Assembly: GCF_005885635.1 (NCBI RefSeq)
Contig: NZ_VATY01000002.1
Coordinates: 372,001-436,000, forward strand
DNA from: Maribacter algarum (ex Zhang et al. 2020)
Lineage (GTDB): Bacteria; Bacteroidota; Bacteroidia; Flavobacteriales; Flavobacteriaceae
Length of the DNA: 64,000 nt
Direction of reading: 5' to 3'
In this document: in pieces, positions 25,643 to 30,433 of the stretch
How the letters are laid out: each line of letters starts with the position of its first letter
Numbering within the stretch: the stretch's first letter is position 1
Notes under the pieces: generated by a model
Database searches by the model: none
Seen by the model: only the letters and a program-made list of their open reading frames with translations
Told to the model about the DNA's origin: nothing
Program-made: the position numbers and the translations under genes

Positions 25643-26299
25643 CTATCTATTTAGCATTTGAAGATTGCCTATGATTATTGATCGATTTTTTAAATCATAA
25701 ACAACAGCATCATCTTCTGAATAGTAGTAAAGCCCCCAAAAACTGAAGTAGTCTTGTTCGCTATTGTTTCCCGATTTTATATTCATTAGAAGTGTATGCT
25801 CATTTTCCATGACATTGTCTTCAAAGACCGGAATGTATACCTCAAATGGAATTTCAGTAAATCCTTTCGTGAAATTGATAGCGTGCTCGTTCAGTTTGAT
25901 TAGAATATTTTCTAGCTGTAATGAAATGCTCTCATCGTAAATTCTATTAATAATAATGGAGGTGTCTTTCAAAAAAAGAGAAAATTCTTCGACTTCTATT
26001 GGCAGGTCATTACACTCTTTCAATTGTTGAAGCGCACCTGCAAAAGATTTTTCTTGCGATTGAAAATTTCCCCATGTCTCTTTTTCGAAATGATGCAAAG
26101 TTTCGGTTAAACCGAAATTACAATCTAATTCAATGACAAGATTCACCGAGTCATTCGAAATAGAGCAGTTTCGAACTGTTACTTGGGAAAAAAAGTGTTT
26201 TTCGAGATTTTTGGTAAAGCAATCAAGACCTTCTATTTCTAAATTCTTGTTAAATCCAACGCGTGAAAAGTTATCAAAATTATCCTTGTTTAACGGCAT
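25643..26299 (-). CDS. Hypothetical cytoplasmic protein under a candidate NarL-type operator
   Basis: 218 residues, no signal peptide, no membrane segment, acidic, no motif I recognise. It is predicted as mixed alpha/beta. What makes it notable is its promoter region: the AAACC-N13-GGTTT motif (26369-26392), which also precedes the LytTR gene, sits at the same distance from a -7-like box. It lies directly downstream of the NarL-type response regulator on the same strand and so may be a target of that system. Confidence 0.6.
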   Translation of the reverse strand: MPLNKDNFDNFSRVGFNKNLEIEGLDCFTKNLEKHFFSQVTVRNCSISNDSVNLVIELDCNFGLTETLHHFEKETWGNFQSQEKSFAGALQQLKECNDLPIEVEEFSLFLKDTSIIINRIYDESISLQLENILIKLNEHAINFTKGFTEIPFEVYIPVFEDNVMENEHTLLMNIKSGNNSEQDYFSFWGLYYYSEDDAVVYDLKNRSIIIGNLQMLNR

Positions 26300-26331: not shown

Positions 26332-26392
26332 TAAAGTTAATTTTAAACCATTTCACAGCACCATAGAAAAACCGTATAAATATGGAGGTTTT
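26332..26392 (-). promoter_or_regulatory. Operator-like motif plus -7 box, copy A
   Basis: On the - strand: AAAACC, 13 bases, GGTTT (26392 down to 26369), then 29 bases, then TAACTTTA (26339-26332). The motif agrees with that at 30410-30433 in 21 of 24 positions, with identical spacing to the -7-like box there. It lies upstream of the gene starting at 26299. Confidence 0.6.
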
Positions 26393-26471
26393 CCTTAGTT
26401 GGTAAAATCTGAATTCCTTAAAAATCTAATTATCAGATATTTATATTTAAAGAGGAGGTTAAAAAAATCGA

Positions 26472-27140
26472 TTAAATGAAGCCTTTTTTTCGCGCTTCTT
26501 CGATTAAAGTGATGTCATTGCCACTTTCTATACCAAAAAGTGTCTTTAATTGTCGCTTGCGAGACTCAACGGTCGTAGTTGCCGAGGAGATTAGAGGTGC
26601 AATATCTTTTGTTCTGGTTCCAATGGACAAGTAATACAATATTTTTTTATCTAATTCATCAACTACTATATCACTAGTCATTCTTCTCCGAATAGCGGCG
26701 AAAGCTCCGGCGGTGTAATAAGGAGGTTTTGTAATCACTGTTTCCACCATTGTTCTTAGGGATTTTTCATCGATTTCGGATTTAACCATATAGCCATCTG
26801 GGTCCACTGATTTGAAAATACTGTTAATACGAAGATTATCACTGAAAGAAGACATGAAAACCACTTTCGATTCAGGAGAAATTTTTCGAGCTAAAATTCC
26901 CAAATCTTCTCCACTTCTAATTTCATTTGAATGAGCTGGAAACAATTGTATATCCAGTAAAATAATATCATACTTCAAAGATCGAGCAGAAAACTCAATT
27001 TTTTCTTGACCCATTTCATAGGTTGTGGCGATATCAACTCTTACCTCAAAATTTTCAAAAGGTTCTCCTTCTAAGATGTACTTATAACCAGTAGTGGTCA
27101 TCTCGTGATCATCAATCGCCAAAATGCGTATTATTTCCAT
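26472..27140 (-). CDS. NarL/LuxR-type response regulator
   Basis: A 222-residue regulator. The receiver domain has the acidic DDHE start (about residues 9-12) and the phosphoacceptor Asp in ILLDIQL. The C-terminal helix-turn-helix region is LDKKILYYLSIGTRTKDIA followed by TTTVESRKRQLKTLFGI, where the family's usual AxxLxIS is diverged. It starts 3 bases beyond the stop of the TPR kinase gene and is its evident partner. It probably binds inverted repeats such as the AAACC-N13-GGTTT motif found on either side of the pair (inference). Confidence 0.87.
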   Translation of the reverse strand: MEIIRILAIDDHEMTTTGYKYILEGEPFENFEVRVDIATTYEMGQEKIEFSARSLKYDIILLDIQLFPAHSNEIRSGEDLGILARKISPESKVVFMSSFSDNLRINSIFKSVDPDGYMVKSEIDEKSLRTMVETVITKPPYYTAGAFAAIRRRMTSDIVVDELDKKILYYLSIGTRTKDIAPLISSATTTVESRKRQLKTLFGIESGNDITLIEEARKKGFI

Positions 27141-27143
27141 ATA

Positions 27144-29246
27144 CTATATTTCTTGTAGGTTGCTTTTTTTTGGTGAGATGCTTGGGGCATTTTCACTATC
27201 GTTCGAAACTAGTGGTATAATAAAAGTAACTGTTGTTCCTTTTCCAACTTCACTTTTAATATCCCAATTACCATTTATTTTTTTTATTCGAGAGGCCATA
27301 TTTCGTATGCCAATTCCTCTTTTACCTCTTTTTTGTACAAATCCCTTTCCGTCATCCACTATATTGACTGTTAGTAAACTCTCATCTGAAAAAAAATTCA
27401 TGTAAATATTTTCGCAATTGGCATGTTTTACCGAATTCTGAAGACTTTCTTGAACCATTCGGTACAAGTTAATCTTGATTTCCCCACTCAATGCATCCCA
27501 ATCCAATTCATCAGTAAAATTAAAATCAATATTTATTTTCGAGGCATTTTCAATAGTTTGCACCAACTCTTTAATCGAAAGAATAAAGTTATGAATTTTT
27601 TGATAAGCGGCGTGACTTAAATCGTGAGAAATAGATCGGACTTCACCTTCGACATCTTGCAGAATTGAGATGGCTTTTGCTCTTTCCCCGATTGCTTCGG
27701 GGTCTGTTTTTTTATTGAGACCCAGTAACATCATACGGGCCCCTAGCATTTTACCTAGAACACCATCGTGTAGCTCTTCGGAAACCCGCTTTTGCTCCAT
27801 TTTTTTGCCTTCCTCCACTTTTTCACCTTGAGCTAACATGAGGTTGAATATCTCTTGGTTATTCGCCTGTTGTTGCTGTCTGAACTTTAGAATTCTGTTT
27901 TTTACGCGTTGATTAATGATGATAAAACTAGCGAGTCCTAGTAAAATTAGGGAGGCGGCTATACCTGTCCAGAGTTGTTTTTCACGCGCCAGAACCTCAT
28001 TCTCGGCGATAAATTCGTCAGTTTCGAATTGGATGCGCGCAAATTTATTTCTAATCTGACGTTCTTGCATCTGCAGGCTGTCGTTAAGAGTGATGAACTG
28101 TTCAGAGTATTTTACTGCATTTTTGGTGTCAGCTTTTGGTAACATTCTTAAAACATTTAGTCGAAGCTTACTATCACCCGTTGCAAGTGCTAGACTTTCG
28201 GAGGCTTTCAAGTTACTTAGGGCCTTGGCGGAATCTTTTACCATTAAATGGTACTCGGCAAACTTTAAAGCCCCAGAAGATTTACCTCTTATATCATTTA
28301 TGCTATCCTGCACTTTTTGGGCCTCGAGAAATGGGCCTGGAAGCTTTTCATATTGCTCACTTTTAAGATAACTATAGCCTAGATTATTTAATACCTTCCC
28401 ATAAAAAGAAATATTTTCTTGTTTAAAATTTTCAAGAGCTAGAACCTCTAGAAAAATTGGTATCGCTTTTTTATGCTGTCCTTGTTTTTGATAAACTAGC
28501 GCCATATTATGTTTTGTAATAAGAATTCTAACTGGAGAAGCGTTGGCCTTTTTATAATAATCTAAAGATTCGTTATAGTGATTCAAAGCCCTTTCATGTT
28601 CGTTTAACAATTTAGCGTTATCAGCTAGAAGGTCATAACATCTGGCAAGTTCACGATATTTCTTTAGGGGTTTTAGCTTTTTGATTGCTTTTATGATTGT
28701 TGCTTCAGCGCCAGAATTATCCCCAATATCTGATTGAATATTTGCCATACTTCGCAGTAATTGACCTGCACGAAATTGATCGTCCAAGGCTTCAAATATC
28801 AGCTGTGCTTCCTTGTAGTGAAAATAAGCACTATCTTTTATGTTGTGTTGGCTCAAAAAAGCTGCTAAATCCCAATAAACTTCTCCTAGGTTGGACGAAT
28901 CACCCATGATTTTATTGAGTTGAATAGCCTTAGAATTAATTTTTCTAAATCTTGAGGAATCCTTGAGGTTGTAATTGATTAAAGATAGCTGAGTAAAAAA
29001 TCTTGCTTTTAGTGAGTCGTTAGAAAGAGAACTGGCTTTGTTTAAGGCCTTATTTAATAGATCGGATTTTACCTCCGGAGTAATATCTGCCAATTTGCTT
29101 TGGTTAATCCAGATTTGTATACTATCGGGTTCAACAGTTCTTACGGAACCCTTAGAACTATTTTGGTTCTGACAAGCAGATACCCAACAAAACAAAAATA
29201 AAACAGCAAGGAAGGATGGTTTCTGGAACGGGGATGGTTTTAGCAT
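27144..29246 (-). CDS. Lipoprotein-type sensor histidine kinase with periplasmic TPR repeats
   Basis: A 700-residue kinase. The leader ends WVSAC, a lipobox, so the N terminus may be lipidated. About residues 50-390 are tetratricopeptide-type repeats, placed in the periplasm. One membrane segment (about 425-447) follows. The cytoplasmic part has the HisKA_3 phosphoacceptor H493 in SEELHDGVLG and a HATPase with N box (ESLQNSVKHA) and G boxes (DDGKGF, KRGIGIRNM). TPR kinases of this kind are common in Bacteroidota. The signal is unknown; the small secreted peptide encoded just upstream is a candidate. Confidence 0.88.
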   Translation of the reverse strand: MLKPSPFQKPSFLAVLFLFCWVSACQNQNSSKGSVRTVEPDSIQIWINQSKLADITPEVKSDLLNKALNKASSLSNDSLKARFFTQLSLINYNLKDSSRFRKINSKAIQLNKIMGDSSNLGEVYWDLAAFLSQHNIKDSAYFHYKEAQLIFEALDDQFRAGQLLRSMANIQSDIGDNSGAEATIIKAIKKLKPLKKYRELARCYDLLADNAKLLNEHERALNHYNESLDYYKKANASPVRILITKHNMALVYQKQGQHKKAIPIFLEVLALENFKQENISFYGKVLNNLGYSYLKSEQYEKLPGPFLEAQKVQDSINDIRGKSSGALKFAEYHLMVKDSAKALSNLKASESLALATGDSKLRLNVLRMLPKADTKNAVKYSEQFITLNDSLQMQERQIRNKFARIQFETDEFIAENEVLAREKQLWTGIAASLILLGLASFIIINQRVKNRILKFRQQQQANNQEIFNLMLAQGEKVEEGKKMEQKRVSEELHDGVLGKMLGARMMLLGLNKKTDPEAIGERAKAISILQDVEGEVRSISHDLSHAAYQKIHNFILSIKELVQTIENASKINIDFNFTDELDWDALSGEIKINLYRMVQESLQNSVKHANCENIYMNFFSDESLLTVNIVDDGKGFVQKRGKRGIGIRNMASRIKKINGNWDIKSEVGKGTTVTFIIPLVSNDSENAPSISPKKSNLQEI

Positions 29247-29265
29247 TCAACTTTTTCCTACAAGA

Positions 29266-29301
29266 TAAAAAAAAAGCTCCAAATGCATTGCATTTGGAGC
29301 T
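29266..29301 (-). terminator. Strong hairpin with T tract between peptide gene and kinase gene
   Basis: Perfect 13-bp arms (29275-29287 and 29289-29301, AGCTCCAAATGCA and its complement); read on the - strand it is followed by nine T. It ends 19 bases before the kinase ATG, leaving no room for a normal promoter in between. It is a terminator or attenuator. Confidence 0.85.
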
Positions 29302-29323
29302 CCATATGAAATAAGATAAAAAT

Positions 29324-29482
29324 TTATGCTGTTCCTCCTCTAGGATCTTCATCAGGACAGTCAGCACAAGTTAACATTGTCGCTAAGTCAAAATCTAAGT
29401 CTATTTTTTCTGCTTGAGTTGCTATCATACTTACTGCGAATACCGCTACTGCCAAAATACTTGCTACTTTCTTCATGTTCAT
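29324..29482 (-). CDS. Small secreted peptide precursor (52 aa)
   Basis: A short reading frame with a typical signal peptide: MNMKKVASILAVAVFAV then SMIATQA, predicted cut after QA. The mature part would be about 28 residues, very acidic (EKIDLDFDLATML), with a CADC Cys pair and a PRGGTA end. A second ATG lies six bases in. A good -7 box (29523-29530) and a pair of LytTR-type direct repeats precede it, and a strong terminator follows, so the gene has its own transcription unit. It stands between a LytTR regulator and a TPR kinase. A signalling role is inference. Confidence 0.7.
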   Translation of the reverse strand: MNMKKVASILAVAVFAVSMIATQAEKIDLDFDLATMLTCADCPDEDPRGGTA

Positions 29483-29522
29483 TTTGTTTTAAGGGGTTGA
29501 ATTTTTGCTTGTTATGTTTAAA

Positions 29523-29530
29523 CAAAATTA
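29523..29530 (-). promoter_or_regulatory. -7 promoter box of the small-peptide gene
   Basis: On the - strand TAATTTTG matches TAnnTTTG, 40 bases before the ATG at 29482. The LytTR-type repeats lie 58 bases further upstream. Confidence 0.55.
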
Positions 29531-29588
29531 TACAACAGCTATTATGAAGAAGGCAGTCTAGAAATTTTGAAAGTAGATGGTCCAGTTT

Positions 29589-29622
29589 TGAGAGTATTCG
29601 AATTAAATCTGAGAGTATTCGA
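29589..29622 (-). promoter_or_regulatory. Candidate LytTR operator: two 13-bp direct repeats
   Basis: TGAGAGTATTCGA occurs at 29589-29601 and again at 29610-29622, exact copies 21 bp apart (two helical turns). LytTR proteins such as AgrA bind paired direct repeats with this spacing. The pair lies between the LytTR stop codon (29623) and the peptide gene. Confidence 0.6.
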
Positions 29623-30354
29623 TTAATTTAAGGAGGAAATTGCGTTTTTTGTCAGGAGTTTCTTTAGCGTGTCAATATTTTCCCGGTATGATTTTGAGAA
29701 AGGCAATTGCTGTTTTTTATATTTTAAGGTACAGCTGGCTTTTCCGTAGCTAATACGGGAGATATAGTCGCTATTTACGATATAGCTTTGGTGTATACGT
29801 ATGAAGTTTTTTGGCATCTGACCTTCGAAGGTTTTCAACGTTTTGAAAGCATGATTTATTGTTCCATCTTTCATAATGAATTCAGTGGCATTATTGTCGG
29901 CTTTCAAATAAAGTATGTCATTTGTGTTTATATAATGAAAGTCACGATAGGATTTTAAACATATGGTCTGGGCCTGAACCTCTTGAGGCATAGTTTTTGT
30001 TAATCGCATTATCGTTTTTCGAACATCGAACTCATCGTAGGGTAATAACCAATAATCGAAAAAGTTATTCTTTATGGCCTCATAAGCGTGATTCTTCGTC
30101 TTTGAAATACCAATATAAATTGGAAGATTACTTGTGTATTGATGTAGCTCAACACTCATTTGAAAATAGGAGCCGGCATTTTCATTTAAGTTAACGAAAA
30201 CAATATCAGGCGTATACTTTAAAATAGCATTTAGTCCCTCCGCGCTATTTTCGGCAATTGCTACGCAATCAAACTCACCACATTTAGCTAAATGGTGTTG
30301 CAAGTTTAGAGTCGCAGAGGTCTCTGAATCGATTATGGTGTATGTATAGGACAA
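29623..30354 (-). CDS. LytTR-family DNA-binding regulator with receiver lacking the Asp
   Basis: A 243-residue protein. The N-terminal receiver-like domain (about 1-120) has the fold pattern, but the phosphoacceptor position is Asn (N55 in VFVNLN). The LytTR DNA-binding domain covers about 136-240 (YINTNDILYLKADNNATEF and FIRIHQSYIVN are diagnostic). The start is TTG at 30354; no ATG is in frame close upstream. A -7 box (TACTTTG) and the AAACC-N13-GGTTT motif precede it, so it may be controlled at transcription rather than by phosphorylation. Confidence 0.87.
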   Translation of the reverse strand: MSYTYTIIDSETSATLNLQHHLAKCGEFDCVAIAENSAEGLNAILKYTPDIVFVNLNENAGSYFQMSVELHQYTSNLPIYIGISKTKNHAYEAIKNNFFDYWLLPYDEFDVRKTIMRLTKTMPQEVQAQTICLKSYRDFHYINTNDILYLKADNNATEFIMKDGTINHAFKTLKTFEGQMPKNFIRIHQSYIVNSDYISRISYGKASCTLKYKKQQLPFSKSYRENIDTLKKLLTKNAISSLN

Positions 30355-30373
30355 AATTTCAATACTATATTTG

Positions 30374-30433
30374 CAAAGTACTGATAGTGTTGCGAAAAAT
30401 GGATGAGGTAAACCTTATATAAATGGAGGTTTT
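30374..30433 (-). promoter_or_regulatory. Operator-like motif plus -7 box, copy B
   Basis: On the - strand: AAAACC, 13 bases, GGTTT (30433 down to 30410), 29 bases, then TACTTTG (30380-30374). Motif and spacing match copy A at 26332-26392. It is the promoter region of the LytTR gene. Confidence 0.6.

Follow-up and report, generated by a model that had tools for sequence, protein, structure and literature searches.

The closest described systems pair a peptide gene with its receptor in one of two ways. In the Agr, ComDE, Blp and Pln loci, the peptide gene lies beside the genes for a kinase and a LytTR regulator, the peptide-receptor region is hypervariable and autoinduction operates through LytTR direct repeats; the kinases of these loci are polytopic membrane proteins, and the LytTR regulator undergoes phosphorylation. 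In the RRNPPA systems of Firmicutes (Rap, NprR, PlcR, AimR), a tetratricopeptide repeat (TPR) superhelix receptor is encoded beside a Sec-exported precursor; the receptor is cytoplasmic, with a helix-turn-helix or phosphatase output, and the peptide is re-imported. A further relative, by kinase architecture, is the FimS/FimR pair of Porphyromonas gingivalis, composed of a TPR-HisKA_3 kinase and a LuxR-type regulator. We know of no peptide ligand in that system, nor of any peptide-based cell-cell signalling worked out in Bacteroidota. Here we describe a five-gene module found in a 64,000-nt stretch of the Maribacter algarum genome (the window), in which a small secreted peptide is encoded next to a TPR-bearing histidine kinase.

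All five genes of the module are on the minus strand, as a sequence-only reading of the window had placed them (coordinates are positions within the window):

29623-30354, minus strand: LytTR DNA-binding regulator with a degenerate receiver and a TTG start (PF04397, E 5e-18)
29324-29482, minus strand: 52-aa secreted peptide precursor, leader at about aa 1-24, predicted mature part with CxxC and DPRGG
27144-29246, minus strand: sensor histidine kinase with lipobox Cys25, TPRs, one putative transmembrane segment, HisKA_3 and HATPase_c
26472-27140, minus strand: NarL-like response regulator with phospho-Asp and Lys intact
25643-26299, minus strand: orphan 218-aa protein without a match in Pfam or NCBIfam

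The locus resembles Agr and ComDE in having the peptide gene beside a kinase and a LytTR regulator. It differs from them in that the phospho-acceptor site of LytTR is occupied by N or H in 19 of 20 aligned homologues, the kinase is of the HisKA_3 type with lipobox, TPRs and a NarL-like partner instead of being polytopic, and the vicinity shows neither a recognisable gene of the AgrB or ComAB type nor a dedicated exporter or protease. With RRNPPA systems it shares the TPR superhelix receptor encoded next to a Sec-exported precursor; the difference is that the TPR domain here would be the outward-facing portion of a histidine kinase, in a phylum of Gram-negative bacteria, preceded by a signal sequence with lipobox, with a kinase output and then a NarL and LytTR cascade. 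The NCBIfam FimS model aligns with residues 162-454 of the kinase at E 1.6e-13, far under its cut-off. Full-text searches of an open-access literature collection listed no module of this layout. We consider that the module is probably an autoregulated polymorphic peptide-receptor signalling system with positive feedback, and that the peptide is very likely the cognate ligand of the TPR kinase; we also lean towards the peptide acting between cells.

Results

Conservation of the module

The five-gene order is kept in 74 of 80 loci from relatives that include Maribacter, Zobellia, Pricia, Eudoraea, Kriegella, Euzebyella, Muriicola and Robiginitalea, with some records assigned only to Flavobacteriaceae, Bacteroidetes or Bacteroidia. 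Five of the six remaining loci reach a contig end (L089, L101, L102, L105 and L124) and in the sixth, L141, the kinase match is incomplete. A kinase match follows the LytTR-peptide pair in 78 loci, and the NarL-like and orphan genes are present in 74 each. The peptide reading frame, on whose conservation beside the LytTR and kinase genes the sequence-only reading had made its proposal depend, occurs in all 80 loci (cut in L124), and the proposal is therefore not refuted on this count. Within the genus, a peptide match was obtained in 14 of 14 genomes, with best E values per genome between 7e-30 and 0.018, and an open reading frame (ORF) with the same leader follows lytTR in every one of them (that of G002 being cut by a contig end).

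The 80-locus counts are based on a LytTR alignment scan of genome records in which the best 80 of 185 relatives were kept. Sixteen of the 80 loci overlap genome contigs used in other comparisons, and 8 of the 75 family kinase loci described below overlap the 80; counts from the different sets must therefore not be summed.

At L115:4933-9100, one LytTR-peptide pair is followed by two tandem kinase genes of the module's kinase family. At L065 (G002:C91), the NarL-like regulator is 61% identical to that of the window, compared to 81-92% in other genus members, and is possibly a replacement or a paralogue.

The mature peptide and the TPR domain change together

The 52-aa ORF starts with a Sec-signal-like basic and hydrophobic leader and ends with the part carrying CxxC and DPRGG. 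Between the window and locus L083, the leader is more conserved than the mature part (88% versus 62% base identity). Precursors fall into coarse classes: class A has a plain signal peptide, a CxxC tail and mostly a later DxR; class B comprises lipoproteins, many with DGDD..DxR-like tails; class C comprises lipoproteins with an SGG-rich tail. In L126 and L158, the precursor is a lipoprotein that has CxxC. Across classes A to C, the mature part is short and for the most part acidic and hydrophilic.

Labels A, B and C were assigned by sequence patterns on the peptide; same-class pairs can differ as much as pairs of different class. L124, with its cut peptide frame, was set to class A by hand. L119, which ends in R, was first labelled B and was moved to C (tail SGGSGG) after the TPR tree had been seen.

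Distances between mature peptides follow those between TPR domains once kinase and LytTR distances are accounted for (partial Mantel r 0.74, P 1e-4, n=15; r 0.74, P 3e-4 for the 12 genus loci). On the TPR tree, class C peptides group in one clade (support 95, one change); the species, kinase and LytTR trees each require five changes. Approximately unbiased (AU) tests reject a C clade with p 3.5e-9 for the species, 6e-41 for the kinase and 2e-109 for the LytTR data. When all three classes are counted on shared rows, the first labels give 10 changes on the species tree, 10 on the kinase tree and 7 on the TPR tree; the final labels give 11, 11 and 6 or 7, respectively, with 10 on the LytTR tree. 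The sequence-only reading had suggested that the peptide may feed back on a periplasmic TPR domain, a suggestion that gains support from this co-segregation.

Among 81 loci (the window and the 80), 76 have a full-length kinase frame, and 71 of these also have two of three flank genes. The C loci L089 and L113 are outside the 71, and the AU tests used six C rows. All trees are quick trees, and the class C counts use the final labels, with L119 as C.

Comparisons between close loci place the variable region more precisely. The kinase domains of the window and L083 share 87-91% of their bases, the four TPR segments 61-69%. In the pair L129-L126, base identity is 92-97% over five LytTR blocks, falls to 49-72% across the peptide end and the TPR domain, and returns to 81-94% from the transmembrane region on. 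The trough is also present in the window-L083, L129-L133, L111-L102, L111-L107 and L102-L107 pairs. Loci L111, L102 and L107 are close at the protein level by kinase (80%) and LytTR (87-93%); L111 and L102, both class A, have TPR domains that are 64% identical, and the TPR domain of the class B locus L107 is 42% identical to both. Synonymous divergence (dS) was obtained for four pairs with kinase dS below 1. In three of them (kinase dS 0.74, 0.80 and 0.98), TPR dS was saturated, given by the program as -1, which favours exchange over fast point change; in the fourth, L110-L112, where the repeat units are near-identical, TPR and kinase dS are 0.97 and 0.94. These patterns fit a hypervariable specificity cassette, made of the mature peptide and the TPR domain, that would be exchanged as one between conserved flanks.

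Structure of the TPR domain

Downstream of the lipobox, whose Cys25 is kept in 90% or more of 75 aligned sequences, the kinase has a TPR domain of about 400 aa and one further hydrophobic segment, read by eye as transmembrane.

27975-29174, minus strand: TPR superhelix of the kinase, aa 25-424, predicted to be periplasmic

The structure model of this domain (pLDDT 90; one of 76 rows left out) is closest to the peptide-binding protein LGN, and the bacterial matches listed include the Rap and NprR receptors (Rap-CSF 4gyo, Rap-Phr* 6t46, NprR 5dbk). In a profile search, designed TPRs, kinesin light chain and LGN ranked ahead of RapF, which was reached at 1e-9. The modelled fold supports peptide binding by the TPR domain, without amounting to proof since TPR folds are common.

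TPR kinases of the module's family also occur in arrays, two adjacent genes at G032:C11:102064-106121 and five at G090:C1:3337644-3347739.

Precursors with repeated units

In 17 of the 80 loci the precursor contains a repeated peptide unit, with up to 10 copies, recalling the multi-copy precursor of yeast alpha-factor. Zobellia barbeyronii (L104) has 10 copies, Maribacter arenosus (L116) has 8, Z. russellii (L103) and M. polysiphoniae (L112) have 7 each, and the thirteen other loci have 2 to 5. Adjacent units of the 17 loci differ by 185 codon changes, 142 of them synonymous and 43 nonsynonymous, when 40 synonymous changes would be expected under random change. This excess points to purifying selection on the unit peptide itself. 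The opposite is seen in four two-copy loci (L127, L136, L083 and L146), which together have 12 synonymous and 26 nonsynonymous differences. Multi-copy propeptides likewise figure among AimR, NprR, PlcR and Rap systems (PMC9765709).

The result relied upon is that of the anchor-bounded unit comparison in the 17 loci. Two other versions were set aside: one with hand-written unit patterns (85 versus 9 variable columns, 15 loci), which was biased by the patterns, and one with a fixed period (144 synonymous and 94 nonsynonymous changes, 52 synonymous expected), which found arrays in 12 of the 17 loci and ran into unique sequence.

Peptide-kinase pairs in the family

Kinases matching that of the window at E up to 1e-60 are present in 83 of 120 genomes of its family. 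A small ORF with a signal peptide lies within 700 bp upstream of the kinase in 63 of 75 loci; the reverse strand gave 1 of 75, and shuffled sequences gave 0.8 on average. A LytTR match was found upstream in 28 of the 75. The peptide-kinase pair thus looks like the core of the system, to which LytTR may have been added as an amplifier. The peptides carry a lipobox-like pattern in 42 of 63 cases. Class changes number 3 for the TPR tree and 4 for the kinase tree, a weak result obtained with 40 rows (24 of the 63 peptides, being unclassed, were omitted).

The kinase-locus set had 76 members, 60 of them picked by hand from the family matches; L268 was dropped, its upstream DNA being too short, and 75 were scanned. 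L036 was not in the small-ORF scan.

Tandem precursors were also seen by eye in the family-wide set, at L075, L228, L234, L253 and L264. In L277, three consecutive small peptide genes lie upstream of one TPR kinase.

Operators, direct repeats and the proposed order of regulation

The sequence-only reading had noted an operator-like motif common to lytTR and the hypothetical (orphan) gene, and LytTR-spaced repeats ahead of the peptide gene. Both were found, the former as AAACCTC-N11-GGTTT at the two ends of the region delimited by that reading, and the latter as three copies at 21-bp spacing:

30410-30432, minus strand: palindromic operator AAACCTC-N11-GGTTT upstream of lytTR, ending 29 bp before a -7-like box
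26369-26391, minus strand: second palindromic operator AAACCTC-N11-GGTTT, upstream of the orphan gene, ending 29 bp before a -7-like box
29610-29621, minus strand: LytTR-type direct repeat 1, CGAATACTCTCA
29589-29600, minus strand: LytTR-type direct repeat 2, 21 bp on from repeat 1
29568-29579, minus strand: LytTR-type direct repeat 3, degenerate, 21 bp on from repeat 2
29523-29530, minus strand: candidate -7 box of the peptide gene, TAATTTTG, read from the sequence (the Bacteroidetes -7 consensus is TAnnTTTG)
29264-29303, minus strand: intrinsic terminator 3' of the peptide gene, a hairpin of -20.2 kcal/mol (z -5.0) followed by a T run

Owing to this strong terminator, the peptide gene looks like a transcription unit of its own. 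A strict palindrome (CC..GG, at least 5 of 6 arm bases paired) precedes LytTR in 43 of 80 loci and the orphan gene in 55 of 75, compared to shuffle means of 1.5 and 1.7; both are present in 25 of 74 loci. Where found, the palindrome begins at -75 to -82 before lytTR. Its arms co-vary by lineage (AAACCT/AGGTTT in the window's genus, CCCC/GGGG forms in Zobellia, TGTCCT/AGGACA in some Maribacter), as expected for the operator of a dimeric regulator. The three-copy repeats after the LytTR stop codon score 18.3 versus 14.9 in shuffles, and the 21-bp offset is the best of the four tried (20-23) in 72 of 81 loci.

The site of the phosphorylated Asp in the LytTR receiver is N in 18 of the 20 homologues, H in one and D in one; the window protein has Asn. 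With such a degenerate receiver, LytTR cannot be activated by the kinase through ordinary phosphorylation, and the NarL-like regulator would act on lytTR by transcription. The cascade, as far as it can be read from these sites, is probably transcriptional rather than a phospho-relay to LytTR. The kinase and the NarL-like regulator have the make-up of a two-component pair, a HisKA_3/HATPase_c kinase adjoining a NarL-type regulator with Asp and Lys intact. In the latter protein the receiver match is under the Pfam cut-off, RespRegMctR (E 8e-15) is likewise under its own, and a GerE domain was not found in the Pfam search, the helix-turn-helix being divergent. Conserved operators, a LytTR lacking the Asp and a NarL-like protein retaining Asp and Lys together suggest that NarL acts on lytTR and the orphan gene, and LytTR on the peptide gene. 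Of the scheme initially proposed, in which the kinase and NarL activate LytTR and LytTR activates the peptide, the order fits the conserved operators, and activation of LytTR would not be by ordinary phosphorylation.

In its own genome, AAACCTC-N11-GGTTT has 8 matches, two of them in the module; a control pattern has 4, and about half of the matches may thus be due to chance. Two further copies of the operator core, at G000:C15:339334 and 341084 (L191:5335 and L191:7085 in extracted locus coordinates), precede genes for a metallo-beta-lactamase-fold protein and an MBOAT O-acyltransferase. A wider regulon including these two genes is possible and is to be taken as a lead, from this one genome.

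The orphan protein and neighbouring genes

The AlphaFold model of the orphan protein has a pLDDT of 83 (13 of 74 orphan rows were left out) and no PDB match at E up to 0.001. We treat the protein as a putative co-regulated output of the module. Neighbouring genes with Pfam matches encode a thioesterase, a glutamine cyclotransferase, a serine hydroxymethyltransferase, an FAA hydrolase and a short-chain dehydrogenase; one neighbour is without a match. The glutamine cyclotransferase gene (PF05096, 32576-33673) is three genes upstream of lytTR and syntenic in most relatives. The enzyme could in principle cap the N-terminus of the peptide; it is more likely a core neighbour.

Discussion

We propose that the product of the small gene is a precursor exported by Sec, and that its C-terminal part, present in tandem in some species, would be processed to yield the signal. 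The TPR superhelix of the adjoining kinase, held in the periplasm by a lipid anchor, would recognise this signal, and the kinase would phosphorylate the NarL-like regulator. The latter would activate lytTR and the orphan gene through the common palindrome; LytTR, not phosphorylatable in the usual way, would then activate the peptide gene via the three repeats, closing a positive loop. The mature peptide and the TPR domain would pass between lineages as one specificity cassette, and related species would consequently use different signal types.

Several observations weigh against this proposal. Twelve of the 75 family kinases have no peptide in the strict scan (L072 and L078 have one under looser rules), and under the strict rules no operator is scored before LytTR in 37 of 80 loci or before the orphan gene in 20 of 75; some of these have imperfect palindromes and others have none. 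Identity troughs also separate loci of the same coarse class (window-L083, L111-L102). At 50-65% kinase identity, TPR identity differs by 1-2 points between same-class and different-class pairs; the gap is 5 to 14 points at kinase identities of at least 65%, where different-class pairs are few (45, 5, 5 and 2). Variability of the sensor is common in kinases, and the kinases compared at this depth were those paired with a peptide. No exporter or protease gene was recognised in the module or its conserved neighbourhood, and the lipobox of class B and C precursors implies that their product may stay membrane-bound in the periplasm.

The last two points also suit a cell-autonomous accessory peptide, secreted or lipid-anchored, that would stay in the producer's envelope and tune its own kinase, thereby reporting on export, on the sorting of lipoproteins or on the state of the envelope. 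Such a peptide would interact with the TPR domain and carry no message between cells. The lipobox-like pattern of so many family-wide peptides and the barrier of the outer membrane are in keeping with it, and co-segregation would be expected of any cognate partner; multi-copy arrays and apparent cassette exchange, however, make more sense if the signal is released and under social selection, and we hold the cell-autonomous role to be rather unlikely. Co-segregation might, on the other hand, reflect linkage only, a fast-varying TPR sensor and the adjoining peptide being carried together by recombination while their products make no contact. The genes are indeed neighbours, the identity troughs span both, and the TPR tree of the family-wide set saves hardly any class changes relative to the kinase tree. 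Against this, class C peptides occur in five places of the species tree yet in one TPR clade, the leader stays conserved although it lies inside the locus, and the repeat unit is itself under purifying selection; linkage alone thus appears improbable. The diversity between close species and the LytTR control resemble those of bacteriocin loci, and one might imagine an antimicrobial or anti-competitor peptide that the kinase senses in order to adjust production or immunity, in the manner of nisin-type autoinduction. The conserved neighbourhood has no recognisable gene for transport, modification or immunity, and the mature parts are of the short, mostly acidic and hydrophilic kind described above; such a function seems highly improbable.

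If the module is indeed a peptide-receptor signalling system, a large family of marine and algal bacteria would have in common a dialect system readable from sequence, whose signals could be predicted from genome sequences and produced by synthesis. Recognition of peptides by TPRs, which RRNPPA receptors carry out inside Gram-positive cells, would be placed in the Gram-negative periplasm, and the loci would constitute a natural set of matched receptor-ligand pairs. Whether the system amounts to a polymorphic peptide language throughout the Flavobacteriaceae, with Sec-exported precursors (some of them alpha-factor-like arrays) read by a periplasmic TPR kinase, signal and receptor being exchanged together and neighbours on algae or in sediment using distinct dialects, is a question on which we find the balance even. 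The way peptide and sensor change together across species suggests a so far undescribed chemical language among marine flavobacteria.

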